DNA of 25,016 nucleotides, from positions 1 to 25,016 of the IMG/VR virus record IMGVR_UViG_3300034198_008077. One strand, written 5' to 3'. Source of the stretch: a virus. Position 1 is the first letter of the stretch, and each line of letters begins with the position of its first letter. A model generated the notes under the pieces. It was given only the letters and a program-made list of their open reading frames with translations. It was not told the origin of the DNA and ran no database searches. Below are positions 7,591 through 25,016 of this stretch, in pieces. The position numbers were made by a program, and so were the translations under genes.

Positions 7591-7620
7591 CCCCCAGTGT
7601 TAACGCACTGGGGGTTTTTT
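7591..7620 (+). terminator. Strong intrinsic terminator of the left arm
   Basis: CCCCCAGTG (7591-7599) pairs perfectly with CACTGGGGG (7606-7614) around a six-base loop, followed by six T (7615-7620). It ends the + strand replication transcript. The last two T are part of the stop codon (TTA on this strand, 7619-7621) of the facing structural gene. In the other direction there is no T-run after the stem, so it is a one-way signal. Confidence 0.93.
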
Positions 7621-10600
7621 ATTCGCCCTTTTTCACGCCATTGTAGACGGAATTGAAGGCGCTGTAGAGTTTGTTTTTCTCAGCACGGTAATGATCCAGC
7701 ACGGTCTTCTCCTCTTCATCGGAGTACCCGCCTGATGTGCGCATGTAGCTCATGACCTCGCGTTGTTCCTTGCTGATATTGTCAAGGTTTTTATCGACGA
7801 TCTGGTAAGCCTCGATGATGCGCGGGTCCGTATCCATAGTGAACTCGGCACCTTGCGCTGCGCGCTGTTCAGGCGTTAGCTTGCTCAGCCGGTTCATAAT
7901 CTGCCGGATGTTGCTGGAGTTTTCAAAGTACTTTGTCTGCGGTGCATACTCGCTTCCAGTGCCCACAAAGCTCTTGACGCCGGGAATATCAGCCGCACCT
8001 TCAGCAGCACCAAGACCCCCAAGCTGTTTAGCAAGCTGGTAGGGGCCACCGAGATAGCCTTCCATCAAATGGCGATAGACCTCAGGCTGAAAATCCACGG
8101 CACCTTTAACAGCTTCCGAACCGCCAGTAGCATCATTGATTGTCCGAGCCAGCCACTGCCAACCTTCACCCGTAGTGGGGCTACCAAGCTCAGAACGCGG
8201 TGCGCTATCGAACTGCGATTCCTTGTAGATCGGACTACCGAAGAAGTTCTGGTTAAGGATGTTCTCCATGATGGGCTTGCCCACTAGCGGGGTAAACGCC
8301 ACAGCAACCGAAGGCGCATCGGCTTGCGGAATGCGGACAGGAGAAGCCACACTTGCTGCACCGAGGACGAGATCACCTGTAACATCACCTGGTGTGGCAT
8401 TCCCAAGCATGATATCACCGATGCGGTTCCCGACAAATTTAAAGTAGCCGAGCATGGGATCGATAGGCAGCTTGACGTAGTCGTCTGCCCCCTGTCCGTA
8501 GTACAAGATAGCGCGGCCCATACGCATGGTGTTGTTCTGGTCGAGGTAATTTTCCTGCCCATCATCGTCATCATCGCCACCAATAGCAGCGTTCATCATG
8601 GACTCGACAACACCGTAGGCCATCAGAGCACCCAGAATTTTAACTGCACCCCTGCCATTTGTCAGCATGCGCTTCGTCTTGCGGGTAGCTTCGACACCCG
8701 TCGCAAAGAATGGGAAGATCAGATCAAGCCCACGTGCTTTCTCACCGCGACGTGTGAGGTTGAGTGACGAGTCTAGGGCAAGGCGCGCTGCATCCGCCGG
8801 CTGGATACCAACTTCAATAGCCGCACGATAGGTCGCAAAACGGGCGCTCATGTCCATCATGTCGGCAAGATTATCGACCCAGTGGTTCAGCGCACTCAAT
8901 ACATTAGTACCGCCCTTACCCTGCAACTGCTTAATGGCTTGGTTTGCTGCGTCGGTCTTCTGTTGTACATCCGTAAACCGCGCATGGAGCGGCGCTCCAC
9001 CTTCACGAATAAACTCTTGGAACTGCTTACCAACCTCCGTGTCCATCGGTTTATTGGTGAACACATAACGTGCAATTGTACCCCACGTGCCGGTGAAAGG
9101 CATCGTGTAACGGATCATGTGCGCTGCCAAGTTCTTCTTATATGCAGGAGAACCCTTGAGGTTCTGATGGTGCATGGCCGTCGCAATGGCTGACGAGATG
9201 TCGCGGAACGGGGCCACAAACATGAGGTGCAGCGGGTTCTTGTAGGTCAGCATCCCCTTAAGGAAGTTGTTGACTGCTGCAACGTTCTTGGCCGCACCCT
9301 CCATATCTTTGGGGTTCATGTTCTCGAACATCCGGCGCAGAGCCTGCCCACTCTCAGTAGGGTCAAACTCGACGTAATACGTAACGCCGTTGTCCTTAAC
9401 GATCATGTAGTTTTCGCGGTTCCGGTAATATTCCTTTTCCATACCATCAGGTACAGGTGCATACCTGTTGCCGGCACGGTCATGCCCAACGACTACCTTC
9501 TTGGGGTTGGCATCTGTGTAGACGTTAAGGATACCATCGAATGCAGCGGGACTTTTTTTCCACTGGCGCAAAATAGGTAGCCGAGCCATGTTGAGGACGC
9601 GCCGACGCACACGCTGCTCAGAATCCTGCATGAGGTTAAAGAGCGGGGCAAGCGGCATCGAGCCACGACCGATAGCGCGACGGAATTCTTGGATGCTTCC
9701 ACCAGGGGATGCTGCGCGCATAGCACGCATAGCTTCATCGCGCCGTGCAGTGACAGCATTTGCGTCTTCGCCGATATCTGCCGTCATGATATCATTATCG
9801 GCAGCAAAACCCTTGAGTGGAACGTAGTTCTGGTAGACTTTAAGTAGAGCATCCATCTGCCCTTGGGAAAGTAGCTTTGCCTTCACGTCTTCTTGAAGGT
9901 TATACCGGACTAGCTCCTGCACCTTCTTCTTGAGGATGTTATATTTGGGCATCAACCCTTCGGCCTCAATCTGCTTAAGACCTTCTTGTGCCTGTGCGGA
10001 TGTAATGCCGGCACCACCTTCAGGGAATTGTGGATTTATCTTGGCAACTTCGCGGTTGCGTTCCGCAGCATGATCCAACCACAGAAAATAGTTAAAGTCA
10101 CCGATATCGACACCCATATTGGCAGCGGACTCGATGATCGGGTCAAACATATTCCGCTTAAGGTCGCGCTGCCGCCCCGCCTGCATGGTTTCCACACGCT
10201 CAAGGATAGGGGCTGTCTGAAGCTCAGTTGGGACTGCTTCTTCGCCAAAGATGCTTTTAGCCCAATTATCTGCGAGTTCTGCCTGACCAAACTTATCCGC
10301 AATGTTAATAAGCCAATCGGGCGCAATCTTCATTTCAGGGGCAGGTCTTAGTGTACCCGGCTCCGCATTTGGGCTGACTGTAGGAGAAACAGGAGGTACC
10401 CCACTGACTCCCACTGGCTCTGGCTCAAGTCCTCCAACTTCTCCGACAGTGTCTCCGGCAGGCGTGGGTTCGCTACTAAGCGGAACGCTTGTTCCAACTC
10501 CTTCACCGACAGGTGTTGTAGGTTTTCCAACTCCTCCATCCGGAGCCTCCTGTTGCTTCGCCCGACGTGCAAACTCAGCCTCAATGTCAGCGGCATTATT

Positions 10601-12229
10601 AGCAGCGTATTGCTGCATTTCTAAATCAGCCGCAGTATCCCCACGCCCTTCACCAGCCTGATAGCGGTCAGCGTAAGACTGAGGTGTAAGCGGACGGAGT
10701 GCCCCTTCATCAACCTGCTCTTCACCGTTGATGGTAGTTGATGTCCGGAACGTACCGGGGGCCTCACCTGCGGGCGCACCCTCTTCTACTGGTGCAGCTT
10801 CTAGACGCTTACGCGCCTCAGCCACCATGCGTTTGGCTTCCGCCAAGGCACCTTCCTCGATGGGCTTTCCTGTTTCCTCATCGATATCGGGAGTGCCGTC
10901 ATCCTTAAGCTTTGTACGCAGAAGAGGTTCTGCAACGTCCGGCTCATACTCCATGCCGGTATCAAGCGAGTCTTCCCAGCTTTTGATGTACTCTTCGCTA
11001 CGGGCAAGGCTCTCGGGAGTTGGTGTTGCGATGTCATTGGAAATCTGACGCCCCAACGTATCGATGGCATTTTTAGCGCGTGTAGAAAGGTCTGGCCCAG
11101 CCGCTGCCGCTAGCTGCCCTGTGATATCCTGTTGGAACTTAAAGACATCTGCACGCTCACCAGCAGGTGCCGCTTCACCTTCTGCCCCAGCAACAGGTGC
11201 TTCTTCCGTTGGTGCAACCCGTTTGCCATGTACATCACCGATAGCACCACCAAGAATACCACCTGCAAGACCTTCGAATGCAGCTTGGCCAGCTACACCA
11301 GCCATAAGATCGGTGTCATATCCTGCACGCTGTTCAGCAAGGTTTTGCGAGAAGCGTTCTTGGCCAGCCTGTGCACCTTCAGGTATAGCTTCTTTACCAA
11401 ATGCTGTAGCAGTGCGCCGTGCAAACCCACGCGCAACTTGCTGTTCAGCCGCACCTTCAACGACATCAGCCACTGCACGTTTAGCGATTGCGCGACCTAG
11501 CTGCCCTTCAAGACCCGTAGCACTAGCGACAGCACCAAGTACGGAACCCAATGCAATCTGATCAAGGTTTTTGCCGCCATAAGCCTGAGCTTCCTCAGCC
11601 ATGGTTTTTGCTTGCGCATCGGATACACCAGCTTCTTTTGCGCGTGCGTACACGGCATCGCTAATGCTGCCCTTGATTGTACCGACACCCGAAGCAGCAC
11701 CCAGTGCCAAGGGTGCAAGGCTAGCCCCACCAGTTTCAGGTGCTAGCGCTGCGGCGGCAGCAAACGGAAGTGCTGAACCTACAACATTGGCCGCAGTATC
11801 AAGCGGGTTTATCGCAAAGGATTTGGCTGCAGCCTTAACTTCTTCCCAGATGCCCTTACCTTCTGCCTCCTTACGGATAGCAGCGGCGGCTTTTTCATCC
11901 TTGCGGGACTGGGCAGACGTCAGACTTTCCGCATAGTTAGCAATGGATTGTAGCGCATTAGAAGCCGCATTATTGGCACCAAACACATCGGTGAAAGACT
12001 TTCCCGTGCCAGCCAATCCAGAGACGAGATTAAGCGGGACATCCGCTACGCTAGCCAGTGCGCCGCCTACGACAGGGATTTTTTCGAGAAAGCTCTCTTC
12101 TTCCAAAGGCTGAAGTAGTAACTTGGTGTCGTGACCGTTTGCACCCAGCCTCGAAAGAAGCTGATCTTGCGTAATGCCCTTTGGCACATTTTTAATAATG
12201 GTACCATTAGGCATCCGGACGTCTGGCAC
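7619..12229 (-). CDS. Giant 1536-residue virion/polyvalent protein with LPD38-like region
   Basis: This is the largest gene in the window and the last of the late block. Its GTG start is set by TAAGGAAC (12235-12242). The front (MPDVRMPNGTIIKNVPKGIT) is a short motif I know from the N-termini of large phage proteins. Residues about 140-350 are rich in Ala and Gly with hydrophobic stretches (near 150-185 and 313-331). Residues about 570-635 form a Pro/Gly/Val-rich linker. Residues about 940-1300 resemble the large polyvalent protein-associated domain LPD38: NPLHLMFVAPFRD near 1000, IFPFFATGVEATRKTKRM near 1175, and an acidic GGDDDDD loop near 1220. By size and place it fits a protein packaged in the capsid and injected with DNA, like T7 gp16 or P22 gp16, though with no visible lytic domain of its own. 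Function is inferred from context. Confidence 0.85.
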   Translation of the reverse strand: MPDVRMPNGTIIKNVPKGITQDQLLSRLGANGHDTKLLLQPLEEESFLEKIPVVGGALASVADVPLNLVSGLAGTGKSFTDVFGANNAASNALQSIANYAESLTSAQSRKDEKAAAAIRKEAEGKGIWEEVKAAAKSFAINPLDTAANVVGSALPFAAAAALAPETGGASLAPLALGAASGVGTIKGSISDAVYARAKEAGVSDAQAKTMAEEAQAYGGKNLDQIALGSVLGAVASATGLEGQLGRAIAKRAVADVVEGAAEQQVARGFARRTATAFGKEAIPEGAQAGQERFSQNLAEQRAGYDTDLMAGVAGQAAFEGLAGGILGGAIGDVHGKRVAPTEEAPVAGAEGEAAPAGERADVFKFQQDITGQLAAAAGPDLSTRAKNAIDTLGRQISNDIATPTPESLARSEEYIKSWEDSLDTGMEYEPDVAEPLLRTKLKDDGTPDIDEETGKPIEEGALAEAKRMVAEARKRLEAAPVEEGAPAGEAPGTFRTSTTINGEEQVDEGALRPLTPQSYADRYQAGEGRGDTAADLEMQQYAANNAADIEAEFARRAKQQEAPDGGVGKPTTPVGEGVGTSVPLSSEPTPAGDTVGEVGGLEPEPVGVSGVPPVSPTVSPNAEPGTLRPAPEMKIAPDWLINIADKFGQAELADNWAKSIFGEEAVPTELQTAPILERVETMQAGRQRDLKRNMFDPIIESAANMGVDIGDFNYFLWLDHAAERNREVAKINPQFPEGGAGITSAQAQEGLKQIEAEGLMPKYNILKKKVQELVRYNLQEDVKAKLLSQGQMDALLKVYQNYVPLKGFAADNDIMTADIGEDANAVTARRDEAMRAMRAASPGGSIQEFRRAIGRGSMPLAPLFNLMQDSEQRVRRRVLNMARLPILRQWKKSPAAFDGILNVYTDANPKKVVVGHDRAGNRYAPVPDGMEKEYYRNRENYMIVKDNGVTYYVEFDPTESGQALRRMFENMNPKDMEGAAKNVAAVNNFLKGMLTYKNPLHLMFVAPFRDISSAIATAMHHQNLKGSPAYKKNLAAHMIRYTMPFTGTWGTIARYVFTNKPMDTEVGKQFQEFIREGGAPLHARFTDVQQKTDAANQAIKQLQGKGGTNVLSALNHWVDNLADMMDMSARFATYRAAIEVGIQPADAARLALDSSLNLTRRGEKARGLDLIFPFFATGVEATRKTKRMLTNGRGAVKILGALMAYGVVESMMNAAIGGDDDDDGQENYLDQNNTMRMGRAILYYGQGADDYVKLPIDPMLGYFKFVGNRIGDIMLGNATPGDVTGDLVLGAASVASPVRIPQADAPSVAVAFTPLVGKPIMENILNQNFFGSPIYKESQFDSAPRSELGSPTTGEGWQWLARTINDATGGSEAVKGAVDFQPEVYRHLMEGYLGGPYQLAKQLGGLGAAEGAADIPGVKSFVGTGSEYAPQTKYFENSSNIRQIMNRLSKLTPEQRAAQGAEFTMDTDPRIIEAYQIVDKNLDNISKEQREVMSYMRTSGGYSDEEEKTVLDHYRAEKNKLYSAFNSVYNGVKKGE

Positions 12230-16506: not shown

Positions 16507-17454
16507 CTACCTTATGACTACGCTTATAGTACCAATTTGTCCAAAACCAAAGACCGGAAGTGGTGCAACGTAAGTTGGGTTCGGGAATTTAGCTGAGATA
16601 AACTGCACAGCGACGATAGCTGATGGCGTTGCCGGAATAGCGGGGTTATTACCAGCGCTAAAAGTCTTGGCCGCAAGGGCAGAAAGGCTCGTCGTAGTAG
16701 CAGACGAGTTCCACATAATCTCGACATAGTCGTTGGCTGCTAGGCTAACCATATATGGCGTTACAGCAATAAGCGCTGACGGCACACCCGCACTTTTGCG
16801 TGGGGGCATAGAGAACTGGCTGTTTGAAGCAGCGATGTCCGTACCGTTCTTGCGGAACCAAACGTCAACTAGTTCTGTACTATTGGCGGTGCTTTTGAAC
16901 TGCAAGCTAAACGTAAACTGGTAAATCCCTTCATGCGAAACAACGATCCGCGAAGTGGGGCTTCCAATAGTTATAACATTGGGGAAATCATTGGTAGTGT
17001 AGGTTACTCCTACGGCTACATCGACGGCAGAAAGCGTCTGGTTAGCGTCGCTTTGAAGCACCGTGTACGGAGTAAATATATGCTCGCCATCTCCGTAAAA
17101 GTCGGTAGCGTAGACACTGCCCACCATCATATCTTGCGATACCTGCCGCCCGTTGCGGTGGCCGTAAGAGATAAGCGCATCGGTCCACACGCCGTTGGCG
17201 CGTTCGTAACCAGTTACCGAGCTATGGGATATAAGTAGGTTTGTATCGACGGTGCCGCTGGCAGTGACGTTGGTTCCTGTGAAGCTACCCCCAACGAACC
17301 GATCTGCTGTGTACTGCTGCGCATGGTTGGGCGTGTTGCTGTCCAACTGGGAAAAGTAGTTTTCCAGCACGCGCATAACCTGCCGCATGTACTGCGGGTC
17401 CCACTTTGAAGGGGGGCCGGGTATCGGCGGAAAACGGAACTTGTCCATTGCCAT
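16507..17454 (-). CDS. Virion protein with C1q/TNF-like C-terminal domain (tail tip/needle candidate)
   Basis: A 315-residue protein. The start is taken as ATG 17454, which shares a base with the upstream TAA (TAATG); a longer in-frame start at 17505 would lie inside the upstream gene. The N-terminus (MAMDKFRFPPIPGPPSKWD, then a helix with RVLENYFSQLDS) matches a short attachment-type segment common in phage tail proteins. Residues about 180-300 look like a C1q/TNF jelly roll: GIYQFTFSLQFKS, VDVWFRKNGTDIAAS and NDYVEIMWNSS. Such jelly rolls make trimeric knobs. In P22-like phages the needle gene follows gp10, and Sf6-type needles end in a TNF-like knob. The same position after the gp10-like gene here makes it a candidate needle or spike. 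Confidence 0.72.
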   Translation of the reverse strand: MAMDKFRFPPIPGPPSKWDPQYMRQVMRVLENYFSQLDSNTPNHAQQYTADRFVGGSFTGTNVTASGTVDTNLLISHSSVTGYERANGVWTDALISYGHRNGRQVSQDMMVGSVYATDFYGDGEHIFTPYTVLQSDANQTLSAVDVAVGVTYTTNDFPNVITIGSPTSRIVVSHEGIYQFTFSLQFKSTANSTELVDVWFRKNGTDIAASNSQFSMPPRKSAGVPSALIAVTPYMVSLAANDYVEIMWNSSATTTSLSALAAKTFSAGNNPAIPATPSAIVAVQFISAKFPNPTYVAPLPVFGFGQIGTISVVIR

Positions 17455-19379
17455 TAGCGTGAACCATCCTGACGGGCATCCAGACGCGGCGCACCCAGTT
17501 GCCACTGTACCCCAAGGGTATCTGATTGAATTTTAAACGCCATCTGGCGCGCACGCGCACGCATGAAGACCTGATTGGTGTACTGGTTAGTCGTAGTTTG
17601 AATTACGCGCTGGCTATCCGCAGCATCAGATTGGGCCGAGCCGCCGGGAAAATTGCGTGGGATAACCGTAAGCGTAGCTTCCGCATTTGTTGCTGTCGAA
17701 TCAGTAAAACTAACATCCGGTATAATACGACGGATCAGCATGAAGTTATCACCATCACCAATATCAAAGGGTGATGACTGGATGTAGCTGGTCATTGCGG
17801 CATTATCATCGTTGATGCCGTTCTCATGAGAGTAAAGATAACCACTACCGACTGTGACTGTGCCGTTAGGATTTACTGTAACGGGTGTATTGGTAGCCTG
17901 CGGCCAGTGGAGGATCGGCGTATCTAACCAAGCTGTGCGCTCAATAGACCCATAGTACCAAATGCGCTCAAGGTGGTTATAGACAACATAAGCATTGTTA
18001 TAATTGCTTGTTGCCGTGGGGTAGAACCACCAGATTTCGTTCCACTGCTCATTGGTCCCGCATACAATCTGGTCAGACTGATCGAGGTTAATGTTGTTGA
18101 ACACGTGGTTACGTAGAGTGCATGGCAGCGTCTCAACGCGACCGGTATAGGCATAGAACTTGTCCTGCCCCATCCAGTAGATGACGTTGGCTGCGGATAC
18201 CATGCACCGAGAAGAGGCGACGGAGATATTGTCCGCATACTCCTGAAGCCCAAACACATCTGTGGTGCCAAGGTATTGCAAGGTATAAAGGTGCGTATCA
18301 GTCCAGATCAGGATTTCCTGCCGAGTCGGCATACCACGAATGATGCGCGAACCGCGAGACACGCGAATGTCACCGGCAGAACTAAACTCAGATGGCGTCC
18401 AGTCACCCGGAGAATCCTGAGATGCCCAGCGGATAAGAAGCGGATCAAAATCCGTAGTGCTTGTAGACCCATAAGGCACAGCTCCCAAAGCAAGGAGATG
18501 CTTGTCCTGCTGGGATACCAGCAACTGCATGATCTGCACTGGAACCGCAGCGGGGTCTTTACTTTGAGATGTAGCATACGCTTGTAGCGTTATTGCGTGG
18601 GTGGCTAGCGCAGTTGCAGGGTCATCAGTCGTGCCGCGCTCCCACCAGTAGCCTGCACCGTTACGAATATTCATCACAAGGTCGTTATCGAAGTTATCGA
18701 ACCACCAGTCGCGCTGTGGAAGCAGAAGCTGAGTTACTACAGGCGAACCCCACGTGCTACGTCCCCATGTACTGGTGCCCCAGCCATAGCCGCCAATGGC
18801 AATGGGATTGCCGGGTTCGATTTCGACCTGCACAGTGTAGCCCGCGCCGCTAATGGACGCATTGGACGTAGCATTGGTTGGGCTAGGCGAGGTAAAGGTA
18901 AACGTGTTAGCCCCAGTAACAGTTACAGTCTGGACACCATTGATATAGGTTGCAAGGATACCCCCAACATTGGTTGCACCTGCAATCTGCACGGGTTCGC
19001 CAGTATCAAGCCACGAAGGTAGCGCAGTCGTTGTGGTTACCGTAATCGTCTTAGTGCCATTCGATGTCGCAATCGTGTTCGACCCAGCGAGTGCCGTGTC
19101 AAAGGGTGTGATGTCGTAATAGACGCCGCCTACGTTGATATAGACACGCTCGTTGGTACCGAGTGCAAGGAAGATATCGGAATAGGAAGTGATCCAGTTC
19201 CACATCTGACGGCACACGCCGACGAAAGCCGTAGTTGGGGATTTAATCCAGCCGCCAATCTTCTCTGGGTAGCCAGAGCGAAACCGAATTTTATCGCACT
19301 CGTACCAGCCACCCTCGTTAGAGTAGTCGGTCTGATCGCGGTTCACACCGGGCTTAAACTGGAGCTTGATGAAAGGCAT
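17454..19379 (-). CDS. P22 gp10-like / tail hub or tail-tube protein
   Basis: A 641-residue beta-rich protein. The front (MPFIKLQFKPGVNRDQTDYS, then EGGWYECDKIRFRSGYPEKIGGW) is typical of a group of podovirus tail proteins that I associate with the P22 gp10 packaged-DNA stabilisation/tail hub family and T7 gp12-like nozzle proteins. Repeated beta-propeller-like blades follow (for example ILIWTDTHLYTLQYLG, NVIYWMGQDKFYAYTG, YNNAYVVYNHLERIWYYG). It would sit at the capsid-tail junction or form the tail tube. An insert of about 90 residues (115-205) rich in Thr/Val/Gly looks like an added Ig-like domain. AAGGGG precedes ATG 19379. The next gene starts inside its stop (TAATG). The tail-hub role is likely; gp10 versus gp12 cannot be settled by eye. 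Confidence 0.78.
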   Translation of the reverse strand: MPFIKLQFKPGVNRDQTDYSNEGGWYECDKIRFRSGYPEKIGGWIKSPTTAFVGVCRQMWNWITSYSDIFLALGTNERVYINVGGVYYDITPFDTALAGSNTIATSNGTKTITVTTTTALPSWLDTGEPVQIAGATNVGGILATYINGVQTVTVTGANTFTFTSPSPTNATSNASISGAGYTVQVEIEPGNPIAIGGYGWGTSTWGRSTWGSPVVTQLLLPQRDWWFDNFDNDLVMNIRNGAGYWWERGTTDDPATALATHAITLQAYATSQSKDPAAVPVQIMQLLVSQQDKHLLALGAVPYGSTSTTDFDPLLIRWASQDSPGDWTPSEFSSAGDIRVSRGSRIIRGMPTRQEILIWTDTHLYTLQYLGTTDVFGLQEYADNISVASSRCMVSAANVIYWMGQDKFYAYTGRVETLPCTLRNHVFNNINLDQSDQIVCGTNEQWNEIWWFYPTATSNYNNAYVVYNHLERIWYYGSIERTAWLDTPILHWPQATNTPVTVNPNGTVTVGSGYLYSHENGINDDNAAMTSYIQSSPFDIGDGDNFMLIRRIIPDVSFTDSTATNAEATLTVIPRNFPGGSAQSDAADSQRVIQTTTNQYTNQVFMRARARQMAFKIQSDTLGVQWQLGAPRLDARQDGSR

Positions 19380-19389
19380 CTATTACCCC

Positions 19390-20004
19390 TTAAGTATACG
19401 CAAATTTGGCTTGGCCCGCAGCACCACCGCCACCAGCACCTGATGTTTGGCTACCTGAACCACCGCCGCCCGGTGCTGTACCAGCAGTGCCTGCACCACC
19501 ACCTGTACCACCAGCACCGCCTCCGGGAGAAGCACCTGCGCCACCCGCGCCACCACCAGCAACACTAGTACCAGCGGTGCCAGAAGTATTAACATCGCCA
19601 CCAGACCCAGTACCAGCAGCGCCACCGGTACCGCCAAGATTACCACTCAATCCATTAACGCCACCGCCTGCATTCAACGAAAATGCAGTGCCAAAAGTTC
19701 CCTGTGATGAGGTGCTTGCATTGCCCGTAGTCCCGCCAGCAACACTTGCAGCAACGGCATAGTTAAAGGTTTGCCCCCAATTGCTTGAAGTAAGAGCAAA
19801 AGTTTTTTTGACGTATGCGCCACCGCCGCCACCGCCACCGCCACCAGTTGGGAAAGCACCACCGCCACCGCCGCCACCCCAAATTTCGATGACGACTTGG
19901 GATGCACCGGACGGAATAGTGTCAGTGCCACTACCAGTAGTGTAGGTATTCGTAACAGGAGAAAATCCAGCTGCGCCAAGCAGCGCCATTTGAATACCGC
20001 TCAT
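19390..20004 (-). CDS. Glycine-rich tail adhesin-type protein
   Basis: A 204-residue protein using ATG 20004 in a TAATG overlap. Residues about 35-65 read VVIEIWGGGGGGGAF followed by a second poly-Gly run and YVKKTF. This is the phage glycine-rich domain (Gly_rich-type), which in tail tips and adhesins folds as a poly-glycine sandwich. The rest (about 100-204) is a low-complexity Gly/Ala/Ser/Thr tail in which glycine runs alternate with short spacers. No enzyme motif is seen. It lies between the long fibre gene and the tail hub, so receptor binding or a fibre tip is likely. The DNA is a long purine-poor repeat of GCC/ACC codons, prone to slippage. Which surface it binds cannot be told. Confidence 0.75.
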   Translation of the reverse strand: MSGIQMALLGAAGFSPVTNTYTTGSGTDTIPSGASQVVIEIWGGGGGGGAFPTGGGGGGGGGAYVKKTFALTSSNWGQTFNYAVAASVAGGTTGNASTSSQGTFGTAFSLNAGGGVNGLSGNLGGTGGAAGTGSGGDVNTSGTAGTSVAGGGAGGAGASPGGGAGGTGGGAGTAGTAPGGGGSGSQTSGAGGGGAAGQAKFAYT

Positions 20005-20303
20005 TAGGAGAGACCTCCCCCCGAAATGACACAATCTGTTGCGCTATTAAACCAGATGGTAGCCATACCACGTTGGGCAAGCGTGCGGTTGCCAGTAGTA
20101 GCAGTGCCGACTTGATACATGGTGAGGCCCGATCCCTGTGTGATCGTTATCGAAGAGCTGCTGTTATTATAGATCGAAATAGCATCGCCCGCAGCAAAGG
20201 TGCTGTTCGGGATCGTGATACCCGCAGTTACTGCGATGCACTGGCCGACGTCGCTAACCGTAGCCGTGCCACTTGTGGTTGAGCGAGGGATGCTGCGATA
20301 TCC
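20004..20303 (-). repeat. Fibre C-terminal domain, copy A
   Basis: This region encodes GYRSIP to the stop in the 410-residue fibre. It shares the order of motifs with 24293-24607 (IP, SIYNNS, GTATTGNRTLAQ, VISGG) and an exact 14-bp match, CCAGTAGTAGCAGT, at 20092-20105. Confidence 0.75.
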
Positions 20304-21236
20304 GATGGCAACACCATTGACCGTAGCGTTATTGTTGACCGAGGTAACCGAACCGCCAAGCGTCAGACTGCCAGACGAGGTCACAGTGCCCGTTAATGTA
20401 AGGCCGTTGATCGAACCAGTGCCGCCCACAGAGGTAACGGTGCCACTGCCAGTGCCCGCACCAATCGCAGTACGGAAAGTCGCGGCATCCAGGGCAGATA
20501 CAGTGTTGTCCGCATTAAAGCGTGGGAATGTAATTGCTGATGGGTTAGTAAGCGTAAATACATTTCCGCCAACCGTCGTTGCGCCCAGCGATGTGCGTGC
20601 AGTAGCAGCAGTGTTAGCTCCCGTACCGCCTTGGGCAATGCTAAGCGCGGTGGTAAGACCGGCCAGAGATGTGATGTCGCTATTAGCCCCAGAGGCCGCA
20701 GTACCAAGTGCAGTGCGCGCAGCGGCAGCAGTGTTAGCCCCAGTACCACCGGAGGCAATCGGAAGGGCAGTTGAGAGAGTTAGTGTGCCAGCAACTGAAA
20801 GCGATGACAAAGCAGTAACTACGTCAACAACGTTAGTGCCATCTGCATAAACCCACATGGTTTTGCCGGCAGGGACGGTCACACCCGTACCCGTGGAAGT
20901 TTTTACGGTGATGCTATCTGCGCAGTCATTCTGGATGATGTATGGCTTTTCAAATGCAGCCGAAGCCGTACCCGTCGTTTTTGGGATGATAAGGTTCCGA
21001 GTAGAGCCACCAGTAGTGCCAGTGCAACGCAAGCGCATATTGCGCGTATTCTGTGATGTGTTGAGATTGCTAAGCGTAAGCGTCACATCTGCGCTTGAAA
21101 ACGACACGTCGGCAGACCCGACAATTGCCTCTTCGATAGCAGTACCCAAGTTGGTATTGGTAATGTCACCCCACGTGGTATTGTTATCCCCCGTGCCCAT
21201 CAATTGGATTGCGAGTGTGCTATACGTGCTTGCCAT
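20004..21236 (-). CDS. Tail fibre protein with GGTGANT repeats
   Basis: A 410-residue beta-structured, Ser/Thr/Gly-rich fibre. The middle carries two copies of the phage fibre motif around LPIASGGTGANTAAAARTAL and LSIAQGGTGANTAATARTSL (about 155-215), with LTGTVTSSGSLTLGG-type beta repeats after it. The last 100 residues are a domain also present at the end of the other fibre (24293 onward). It contains a NNSSSS loop and GTATTG-R-TLAQ-G-AT near the end. This would be a trimeric fibre binding the host surface. The start ATG 21236 has AAGGAAC made partly from the preceding stop. Its TAA overlaps the glycine-rich gene's ATG (TAATG), suggesting joint production of two receptor-binding parts. No chaperone gene is seen. 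Confidence 0.85.
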   Translation of the reverse strand: MASTYSTLAIQLMGTGDNNTTWGDITNTNLGTAIEEAIVGSADVSFSSADVTLTLSNLNTSQNTRNMRLRCTGTTGGSTRNLIIPKTTGTASAAFEKPYIIQNDCADSITVKTSTGTGVTVPAGKTMWVYADGTNVVDVVTALSSLSVAGTLTLSTALPIASGGTGANTAAAARTALGTAASGANSDITSLAGLTTALSIAQGGTGANTAATARTSLGATTVGGNVFTLTNPSAITFPRFNADNTVSALDAATFRTAIGAGTGSGTVTSVGGTGSINGLTLTGTVTSSGSLTLGGSVTSVNNNATVNGVAIGYRSIPRSTTSGTATVSDVGQCIAVTAGITIPNSTFAAGDAISIYNNSSSSITITQGSGLTMYQVGTATTGNRTLAQRGMATIWFNSATDCVISGGGLS

Positions 21237-21240
21237 CTTT

Positions 21241-21248
21241 GTTCCTTA
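21241..21248 (-). promoter_or_regulatory. Stop codon forming a Shine-Dalgarno (TAAGGAAC)
   Basis: On the minus strand the TAA of the repeat protein is the start of AAGGAAC, placed before ATG 21236. It is identical to the site at 12235-12242. Confidence 0.65.
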
Positions 21249-22196
21249 CGTTGGGATTTGCACCCAAGTCACTGTATTGCCGTCTGCTACTTGAACCCAT
21301 GTTACCGTTTGAGCATCGTTAACCGCTACCCAGTTAGGTGTTTGTGCGTCGGATATAGCAGACCAACTTACGCTTTGCGAGTTATTTACATCTACCCAGT
21401 TGGGTGTCTGATTGTCGTTTATAACCCCCCAGACAAGCACGCTGGTGATCGACCCAGTGGCTGAAACCCCAGTTACCGATACCTTAGCACCAGCAGAAAT
21501 GGTCACACTGCCAAGGCTAACCGACGCTGAAACGCCTGTGACGTACACAGGTATGACGACTTTGCCTATAGACCCAGTAGCCGAGACTCCTGTTAGGGTC
21601 GTGTTAGCCTTGGCAGTTACGGTAACTGTACCTACTGCACCTGATGCTTCAATGCCTGTGGGGGTGGCATTAGCCTTGGCAGCTACGGTTGCTGTACCGA
21701 TAGAGCCACTAGCCGAGACACCTGTCAGGGTAGTGTACGCAAGACCCGTAACCGTTGGAGTACCAAGAGAGCCGGTAGCCGAGACGCCTGTCAGGGTAAC
21801 AGCTACAGAGTTGCTGCCGACTACAGTAACAGTACCAAGAGAGCCACTAGCCGAGACACCTGTTAGAGTGGTGTACGCAAGGCCCGTAACCGTTGGAGTA
21901 CCCAGCGTTCCTGAAGCGGAAACACCTGTCAGGGTGATGTTGGCTAGACTTGCAACAGATACAGTGCCCAGCGTCCCTGAAGCTGAAACACCAGTTAGAG
22001 TGGTGTTGGCTTTAGCTGCTACAGTAGCTGTGCCCAGCGTCCCTGAAGCGGAAACACCAGTGAGCGTAACATTAGCCAGACCTGTAACAGATACAGTGCC
22101 GAGCGTACCTGAAGCTGAAACATCCGTAAGCGTTACAGATGCAGTAGCTATATCACCCGCAAAAGGGGCGGTAGCGAAGGGGACAAAACCAAACAT
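21246..22196 (-). CDS. Two-level tandem-repeat protein, unknown (virion surface candidate)
   Basis: A 316-residue protein. The front is MFGFVPFATAPFAGDIATAS, a short hydrophobic start I know from marine-phage virion proteins. About 11 copies of a 22-residue unit follow (residues 17-260), each like ANTTLTGVSASGTLGTVSV; most are 22 residues and one is 24. Five units of 11 residues then end the protein (261-316), each centred on W: DAQTPNWVAVN and relatives. Both parts look like beta-strand repeats of a decoration, fibre or adhesin protein. It is flanked by the Rz1-like gene and the fibre gene, and has AAGGGGG before ATG 22196. Function is unknown. The antisense frame is long only because the repeat makes it so. 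Confidence 0.8.
   Translation of the reverse strand: MFGFVPFATAPFAGDIATASVTLTDVSASGTLGTVSVTGLANVTLTGVSASGTLGTATVAAKANTTLTGVSASGTLGTVSVASLANITLTGVSASGTLGTPTVTGLAYTTLTGVSASGSLGTVTVVGSNSVAVTLTGVSATGSLGTPTVTGLAYTTLTGVSASGSIGTATVAAKANATPTGIEASGAVGTVTVTAKANTTLTGVSATGSIGKVVIPVYVTGVSASVSLGSVTISAGAKVSVTGVSATGSITSVLVWGVINDNQTPNWVDVNNSQSVSWSAISDAQTPNWVAVNDAQTVTWVQVADGNTVTWVQIPT
21249..21416 (-). repeat. Five 33-bp repeats coding Trp-centred 11-mers
   Basis: Units begin DNQTPNWVDVN, NSQSVSWSAIS, DAQTPNWVAVN, DAQTVTWVQVA and DGNTVTWVQIPT. The Trp is at place 7 of each. Confidence 0.7.
21417..22148 (-). repeat. About 11 tandem 66-bp coding repeats
   Basis: The repeats encode the 22-residue unit with core TLTGVSASGTLGTVSV. 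The middle units are nearly alike in protein but vary in codons, and the last units are more diverged. Copy number may vary between relatives. Confidence 0.8.
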
Positions 22197-22217
22197 ATGT
22201 AAGCCCCCTTCCCTATG

Positions 22218-22562
22218 TTATTTTACAGCTACTGCGTCTTCCCATGCTTTAACCGTCAAGCGATGCTTTACACTACAATCCGTGTATTTTGCAATGATAT
22301 CGGCTTCCCAGATAGAGCGCTCAGGGTCAATTAAAGATATTGGTGGGGCTGGAAGTGTTGGACACTTCGACGCTAGGTTTGCCGGTGGAAGCGGCATTGG
22401 CATCACGGACACTGCCTTCGAGCAGCCTGCGCACAGCGTCAGGAGCAGAGCAATCAACAGGAACGGCAGGAGCCGTTTTATATATTTCACGTATGGTGTT
22501 GATGCGCTCGGTTGCCATGACATTGGCTTGATCTCGTTGGGCTTCGTACGTTTGCGAAACAT
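22218..22562 (-). CDS. Rz1: o-spanin lipoprotein (Rz1-like)
   Basis: A 114-residue protein whose start at 22562 has AGAGGT upstream (a second start at 22523 is possible). After a basic stretch (KYIKR), a hydrophobic run LLPFLLIALLLTL ends in CAGC, a signal-peptidase II type lipobox with Cys47 to be lipidated; the -3 place is Cys rather than the usual Leu. The mature part is short and proline-rich at first (MPMPLPPANL, CPTLPAPP). As an outer-membrane lipoprotein it would join with the inner-membrane partner to fuse the two membranes in the last step of lysis. It starts inside the Rz-like gene in another frame and runs on beyond it, an arrangement known in many phages. Confidence 0.85.
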   Translation of the reverse strand: MFRKRTKPNEIKPMSWQPSASTPYVKYIKRLLPFLLIALLLTLCAGCSKAVSVMPMPLPPANLASKCPTLPAPPISLIDPERSIWEADIIAKYTDCSVKHRLTVKAWEDAVAVK

Positions 22563-22728
22563 TATCTACTACCTCTTGCTTTTTGACCCGCGACTTCTCA
22601 GCCTTTTCCAGAGCCTTTGCATATGCCGCATCGCACTGCCAATCACGAACTTTATACCCTGCGGCTGCGCCAATAACCAGCGCACCTGCCGTTGCGTAGA
22701 GCATCAATGGGTTAGGAATTAGGCCCAT
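22327..22728 (-). CDS. Rz: i-spanin (Rz-like)
   Basis: A 133-residue inner-membrane spanin. The N-terminus has a single membrane segment (about 8-24, LMLYATAGALVIGAAAG) followed by a periplasmic part with a charged helix (about 35-85, KALEKAEKSRVKKQEVV and onward) likely to form coiled coil, and a tail with CSAPDAVRRLLEG. It overlaps the endolysin gene by 10 bases at its start, and the lipoprotein spanin starts within it in another frame. With that partner it would complete lysis after the holin and the endolysin. Confidence 0.85.
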   Translation of the reverse strand: MGLIPNPLMLYATAGALVIGAAAGYKVRDWQCDAAYAKALEKAEKSRVKKQEVVDNVSQTYEAQRDQANVMATERINTIREIYKTAPAVPVDCSAPDAVRRLLEGSVRDANAASTGKPSVEVSNTSSPTNIFN

Positions 22729-23964: not shown

Positions 23965-24293
23965 TATGCACTCCAAGGTAGGTCTGGGGTTACGACAGGC
24001 GGGTCGATCTGGTTTTGGATTTGCTCCGCCACATTTGCTTCGTAGCTTGCTACTTGTTCTGCACCCATAGCAGATTGTACCCAACCAATCACCTGCGTTT
24101 CGGTGAGGTCGGCGTAAGGTGTGAAAGGTGCGGTTGGATCGACAGCTACAGCCTGCGTACCGTATACGTTGCCGCTAAACCCAGCTTCAGTACCAGTAAG
24201 CGTCCAGTGGACGTTGAAGACCACATTGGTCTCACTGCCTTCCTGCGGGTAGCAGTCCATCTGAATGACCGTCCATGTGTATGTTGTTGCCAT
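23964..24293 (-). CDS. 109-residue phage protein of unknown function
   Basis: It starts at ATG 24293, overlapping the TAA of the fibre gene (TAATG), with GGAG about 8 bases upstream. The front reads TYTWTVIQMDCYPQEG, the middle NVVFNVHWTLTGTEA-x-x-x-G-N-VYGTQ, and the end PYADLTETQVIGWVQ-x-x-x-G plus a helix, closing with LPWSA. I recall short phage proteins with this same pattern (W-x-V on one strand, V-x-V-x-W, F-x-P-Y-x-x-L-T-E-x-x-V-x-x-W) that sit after fibre genes, classed as a domain of unknown function. A fibre-associated or assembly role is only suggested by position. Confidence 0.75.
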   Translation of the reverse strand: MATTYTWTVIQMDCYPQEGSETNVVFNVHWTLTGTEAGFSGNVYGTQAVAVDPTAPFTPYADLTETQVIGWVQSAMGAEQVASYEANVAEQIQNQIDPPVVTPDLPWSA

Positions 24294-24607
24294 TAGGTTA
24301 CTCCGGCTCCTGAAATGACCCACACTGTTGCGGTGACTTTAAGGCATGTAGCAACACCATATTGGGCTAGCGTACGTGACCCAGTAGTAGCAGTACCAGC
24401 AAGGCGTAGTGTATCGGTCGTAATGCTGATCGTCTGGCTGCTGCCACTGTTATTAAAGATGGACACCGCTGAGCCGATTGGAAACGCTACAGAGCCGTTT
24501 GCTGGGATGACAACACCGCCAGTCGTAATGCTAATGTGCTTACCCATGTCGGTCAAAGCTAGCGTATATGAGGCAGTCTGGCTGTTCTGCGGAAGGCCTT
24601 TATAGCC
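24293..24607 (-). repeat. Fibre C-terminal domain, copy B
   Basis: This region encodes GYKGLP to the stop in the edge fibre. It is similar in protein to copy A; the exact 14-bp match lies at 24381-24394. Confidence 0.75.
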
Positions 24608-25016
24608 AAAAGCAGCTGCTTGGTTAGCACTTGTGATCTGCCCGACATCATCAATGATAATCCCATTGGTCGAGAAGCCTACGCCTTGGTTGATGCGCCA
24701 ACGGTTGCTAGTATCAACACCCCATGACCACCAGAGATCGACACTACTGCCGTTCTTTGCCGCCAAAATGTTAAAGCCTTCTTTACTAGCAGCGTTGGGG
24801 GACATCTGGGTTAAACGATCATAACCACCGTAAGAAGATTGGATGTGCAGTGCGGCATCGGTTCCCGTACCACCAATAGCAACACCGCCCCCTGATCCGA
24901 TACGCATATGTTCGGTACCAGTGGTTGAAAACCGCAAAGCGGCTGCACCAGCAGCGTTAAGGGTAAAATCACCAGTTCCTGAATTAACGATGTCAAACGC
25001 ACCATTAGCCCCGCCA
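24293..25016 (-). CDS. Tail fibre protein, C-terminal part (cut by window edge)
   Basis: The frame is open to the right edge, so the start lies beyond 25016; about 240 residues are seen. Ser/Thr/Gly-rich beta repeats include GTEHMRIGSGGGVAIGG, a common phage fibre motif of the RIDSSGNVGIG type, followed by a WSWGVDTSNRWRI segment. The last 105 residues (from GYKGLPQNSQ) form a domain also present at the end of the second fibre (20004-20303). It would bind the host surface or attach to the tail. Its stop overlaps the next gene's start (TAATG), and it heads the late block seen here. The domain content of the missing front is unknown. Confidence 0.85.
   Translation of the reverse strand, partial: GGANGAFDIVNSGTGDFTLNAAGAAALRFSTTGTEHMRIGSGGGVAIGGTGTDAALHIQSSYGGYDRLTQMSPNAASKEGFNILAAKNGSSVDLWWSWGVDTSNRWRINQGVGFSTNGIIIDDVGQITSANQAAAFGYKGLPQNSQTASYTLALTDMGKHISITTGGVVIPANGSVAFPIGSAVSIFNNSGSSQTISITTDTLRLAGTATTGSRTLAQYGVATCLKVTATVWVISGAGVT

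Follow-up and report, generated by a model that had tools for sequence, protein, structure and literature searches.

Results

A repeat gene within a tail gene block

The window, a 25,016-nucleotide stretch of viral DNA (IMG/VR record IMGVR_UViG_3300034198_008077, positions 1 to 25,016), encodes a protein made of an N-terminal tag (MFGFVPFATAPFAG), a tandem array and a C-terminal strip of regularly spaced tryptophans (Table 1). Its gene is preceded by those for endolysin and Rz and is separated by 10 bases from a tail-fibre gene downstream, which agrees with the original prediction that it stands between lysis and fibre genes. It belongs to the tail gene block, with adaptor and fibre genes for neighbours. 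A near-twin of the protein, with one residue different, is encoded in IMGVR_UViG_3300032216_000455.

Table 1. Features of the repeat gene and of the tail genes downstream of it
Feature	Coordinates	Strand	Basis
Whole gene, 316-aa modular repeat protein	21246..22196	-	ORF, ATG start
N-terminal tag, residues 1-14	22155..22196	-	Family consensus MFGFxxFAxxPFA
Array, 11 units of ~22 residues, residues 19-256	21429..22142	-	Lag identity, AlphaFold2 model, structure neighbours, unit profile, TRF period 66
C-terminal Trp strip, residues 256-316, six Trp	21249..21431	-	Spacing and alignment of relatives
Tail-fibre gene, directly downstream	20004..21236	-	PHROG tail-fibre matches; MASTYS... N-terminal domain
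Virion structural protein phrog_3287, "stabilization protein" type	17454..19379	-	PHROG E 4e-57; downstream in many relatives

Against PHROG, the repeat protein gave a weak match to phrog_11583, of unknown function (E 1.6e-4), and no match to a tail-fibre family, while Pfam and NCBIfam returned nothing above cut-off. The original prediction was open to refutation by a single known domain confidently covering both repeat parts; none was found in these three libraries. A Pfam hit to the copper chaperone PCuAC (E 0.046) lies below cut-off and was attributed to chance. An open reading frame on the plus strand opposite the gene (21412-22722) was put down to codon composition, and no tRNA or Rfam match was present in the window.

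The neighbouring tail-fibre protein shares its C-terminal module with the tail fibre of a Sphaerotilus phage, at 62% across 97 residues. A similar module (...GTATTGxRTLAQxGxAT...) occurs in a further fibre-like protein at 24293-25015 (minus strand). Elsewhere in the window (7619-12229, minus strand), a 1536-residue protein with an LPD38 domain has an SLT-domain protein and a DNA-ejection-protein match as neighbours; these are probably internal virion proteins.

The array and the Trp strip share one frame

The array had been predicted to hold about 11 units of 22 residues, and 11 were found, starting at residues 24, 46, 68, 90, 112, 136, 158, 180, 202, 220 and 242 (for example TGVSASGTLGTVSVASLANITL). 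Successive starts are 22 apart, except for one step of 24 and another of 18. At lag 22 the array has an identity of 0.53, and 500 shuffles reached at most 0.23 at any lag. Tandem repetition is visible in the DNA as well, in copies 66 and 132-138 bases long (TRF period 66).

The six tryptophans of the strip stand at residues 256, 267, 278, 289, 300 and 311, each exactly 11 from the next, with the consensus W-x-x-[IV]-N-D-x-Q-T-x-x. The five 11-residue Trp units proposed originally are therefore correct as Trp-to-Trp steps, but the count passes over a sixth tryptophan, W256, which lies inside the last 22-residue unit and places array and strip in one register. This register is shared across the family: in 87 of 100 relatives the first Trp falls 13 residues past the Gly of the last 22-residue unit. 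Within the Trp part of the window protein the best lag is 22 (0.43), followed by 11 (0.40, equal to the shuffle maximum of 0.40). Over 32 proteins with six Trp, likeness between Trp units is 0.52 at lag 22, 0.40 at lag 11 and 0.38 at lag 33. When Trp regions are clustered, which removes kinship in part, 52 of the 62 clusters have an even number of Trp.

Because the two parts are commensurate and in register, show likeness at lag 22 and carry even Trp counts, they are related in frame. The claim of two unrelated repeat systems is thereby not supported, and the Trp part is best seen, from its sequence, as one to three extra two-strand 22-residue units with a Trp in each half.

The strip is also the most conserved part of the protein across more than 100 phages, with D, Q and Trp nearly invariant; pairwise identity is 0.62 there and 0.46 in the last array units. 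Variants whose middle repeats are 20 residues long (L160, L181, L209, L221 and L245) have their Trp 10 apart, again a ratio of 2:1. In five relatives (L014, L017, L020, L023 and L056) a further tag copy (FFGFGSFGETPFASLAFDD) interrupts the Trp units, so that the tag can be C-terminal too.

A predicted beta-solenoid with an uncharged core

AlphaFold2, run with 30 relatives, modelled residues 21-190 at pLDDT 90-97, falling to ~60-90 towards residue 256, with one strand per 11 residues and hence two per 22-residue unit. The tag and the Trp strip had low pLDDT in the same model (~40 at the Trp end). When the last 119 residues were folded on their own, with 25 relatives, they reached pLDDT 55 and pTM 0.17 with zero strands, and a structure search with the model of the strip found nothing. 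Of the stacked beta structure with a Trp-lined end that was originally suggested, the stacked array is thus upheld by prediction, with beta-solenoids as its structural neighbours, and the end has no predicted fold; "Trp-lined end" is a statement about sequence only.

The best solved neighbour of the array model is the curli subunit CsgA of Pontibacter korlensis (8c50; VIA-align Z 23.2 over 257 residues, rmsd 8.0), and the runners-up are other beta-solenoids at Z of at most 17.4. Foldseek alone found no significant match to the array model in the PDB, and a profile search of PDB sequences returned only an LRR chain (E 0.56).

Confident but unrealistic solenoids are a known failing of AlphaFold2 on near-perfect repeats, for which buried charges serve as a warning (PMC11795689). 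In a profile of 398 units from 47 proteins, positions 3, 5, 9, 12, 14, 20 and 22 are hydrophobic with 0-3% charged residues, and charges are found at positions 4, 8, 13, 15, 17 and 19. The profile also reveals a unit that is nearly reverse-palindromic. That the repeats are imperfect and the predicted core uncharged speaks for a real core, short of proving the fold. On this model, the array is likely a beta-solenoid.

Constant ends around exchangeable middles

A scan of viral contigs returned at least 160 relatives, with about 5 to 31 units each (a regular-expression count) and N-terminal modules of several kinds. The tag stands at the start of most of them, although it was not part of the query; its residue frequencies are partly a product of sampling, many rows having been drawn by the DNA pattern of the tag. 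A DNA search for the tag gave at least 119 matches. Among 77 tagged proteins that were read, 32 contain the 22-residue repeat and 45 have other bodies, including middles built on ITETLxLTD (period 20), GQ (22), IDGVA (20), TNTFY (23), NALAxVSC (20) and, in one case, ITPxxGAVxL (22). The MFGFxxFAxxPFA sequence therefore heads at least six unrelated repeat middles, whose units run to 20-24 residues, as well as one non-repeat protein of ~120 residues. The latter (L170, L187, L190, L197, L199 and L204) is encoded among structural genes, with fibre-like or small genes upstream and probable scaffold and capsid genes downstream.

Complete repeat types usually end in the Trp strip, the exception being TNTFY, which has the tag without the strip. 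Querying with the strip itself recovered proteins with the same ends and other middles, and also proteins with at least 10 Trp steps.

On the question of copy number, which the original prediction had raised, relatives differ by whole units. In two pairs of phages whose flanks are 96-99.8% identical, one array is longer than the other by exactly 66 residues, which fall in a single 66-residue gap or in three 22-residue gaps, and the ends are unchanged or nearly so. Such whole-unit change between fixed ends supports reading the middle as a modular spacer. Comparison of L226 with L250, whose flanks are nearly identical, shows three separate 22-residue gaps together with many substitutions, all confined to the middle, a pattern that recombination reshuffling the units could give.

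Pelagibacter phage HTVC023P gp68, DSL-LC04 WJZ48131 and the uncultured Caudovirales protein A0A6J5P871 are sequence relatives without an assigned function, and differ from the window protein in unit number and N-terminal module. Searches of cultured phages with the other tagged variants gave nothing, or weak matches with uninformative names. In bacterial genomes, 180 pattern matches included no true relative. A literature search for peptide strings of the family found nothing relevant, and we found no virion mass spectrometry, proteome or structure of any member. The libraries and papers that we searched appear to contain no description of the family.

Genomic association with the adjoining tail-fibre gene

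A single tail-fibre N-terminal family accounts for the gene immediately downstream in 139 of the 180 loci that could be read, a total in which some contigs count twice. The same gene pair is found in HTVC023P, where gp68 is followed by gp69, a "putative tail protein". In DSL-LC04 the repeat gene is followed by a fibre with an intramolecular-chaperone domain and then by a lectin, with the adaptor upstream. Family loci encode an adaptor of the type found in phage SU10 (Pfam E 5e-28).

The spacing of the tryptophans is correlated with the type of fibre next door. The MASTYS fibre family adjoins 84 of 98 proteins with Trp spacing 11, whatever their middle, and none of the eight with spacing 10, all of which adjoin other fibre families (Fisher p 1e-6, a value that ignores kinship). 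Phage lineage alone may account for this link.

Discussion

Sequence comparison establishes constant ends, an exchangeable middle of variable length, a 2 x ~11 frame through both repeat parts and a fixed position directly ahead of a tail-fibre gene. Phages are known to have repeat-built tail appendage proteins, and these features support placing the repeat protein among them, as an appendage or a scaffold of the tail. We consider it probable that the protein is associated with the tail in the virion; that it serves there as a modular accessory protein of the tail-fibre apparatus is a proposal to which we give about an even chance. In the mechanism we propose, the MFGFxxFAxxPFA peptide would plug the protein into the tail. 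The 22-residue units would stack into a narrow two-sheet beta-solenoid, a rod setting a distance, and at ~0.5 nm per unit this rod would measure ~5 nm here and roughly 2.5-15 nm across the family. At the far end of the rod, the C-terminal Trp strip would be a surface for assembly; in the simplest case it would dock the adjoining tail fibre.

For the tag, a parallel exists in K1-5/SP6-like and Klebsiella phages, where receptor-binding proteins dock to another tail protein through a conserved N-terminal peptide, 7-11 residues long in K1-5 (PMC6872550). The resemblance lies in one short conserved N-terminus joined to otherwise different bodies; the tag differs in sequence, being Phe-rich, and its attachment is putative. 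By this analogy we lean towards reading the tag as an anchor.

For the strip, the closest parallel is the nozzle protein gp17 of phage SU10, in which dock-loop Trp 839, 847 and 857 grip the trimeric short tail fibre (PMC9509320). Both have spaced Trp, and the family loci also carry the SU10-type adaptor. However, the strip differs in its exact spacing of 11 (or 10), its usually even number of Trp and its position at the C-terminus of a repeat protein rather than in a propeller loop. A simple dock with three Trp per trimer is disfavoured by the mostly even Trp counts (2, 4, 6). That the strip is conserved above the last array units would suit an assembly surface better than a host-range tip, and we tentatively prefer a protein dock to a sugar binder, though at somewhat less than even confidence.

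The same strip can be read differently. Exposed aromatic ladders are a common means of binding sugar chains, and the gene lies among fibre and lectin genes, so the rod might instead be a receptor- or polysaccharide-binding tip that bears the strip outward, its regular Trp rings binding cell-surface or matrix sugars. The near-invariance of D, Q and Trp in what is the most conserved part of the protein is unlike a host-range tip, and no carbohydrate-binding family was matched in PHROG, Pfam or NCBIfam; we regard this alternative as doubtful. Another reading concerns the fold. Most phage fibres are trimers, the Trp end is unfolded in the monomer prediction and a nearly reverse-palindromic unit also suits beta-hairpins, all of which would fit 22-residue units forming an intertwined three-chain beta fibre with the strip as its trimer-forming end. 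A confident monomer model of the array with an uncharged core, and whole-unit insertions and deletions that keep the frame and would be easily tolerated by a solenoid, make a trimeric fibre unlikely.

The likeness to CsgA raises a third alternative, that of a secreted or cell-surface matrix protein which, like phage-borne curli, glues infected cells together. Curli operons are indeed carried by pelagiphages (PMC9599517), and CsgA resembles the array in having a ~22-residue repeat with two strands 11 residues apart, predicted strands in the case of the array. Nevertheless, likeness of fold to CsgA does not show a common function. The array units lack the curlin core motif N-x5-Q / Q-x10-Q, and Gln is absent from the core positions of the unit profile. 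Pfam PF07012 (Curlin_rpt) matched neither the 316-residue protein nor any of 15 records (the window and 14 related ones), with an E. coli control positive, and CsgG (PF03783) was likewise absent from these 15 records, several of them maybe incomplete, with positive controls. We reject a curli system on the missing motif and on the CsgG and curlin-repeat genes missing from these 15 records. Together with the position of the gene among tail genes, this leaves a matrix protein highly improbable.

Returning to the modular tail accessory, we speculate that the family represents an undescribed tail-building kit of environmental phages, in which exchangeable beta-solenoid rods would be capped by a plug rich in Phe and a docking strip of Trp, with unit number setting the stand-off of the fibre and Trp pitch (10 or 11) matched to the N-terminal family of the fibre. 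We put this well below an even chance. Environmental phage contigs often carry the family, which has neither a name nor a Pfam or NCBIfam model and occurs in more contigs by the tag alone. Tag and strip offer a handle to recognise unannotated fibre partners in uncultured phages, and the natural series of rods differing by whole units lets one ask whether repeat number tunes tail-fibre reach. One contig (L264) apparently encodes two such proteins, with middle periods of 20 and 22.
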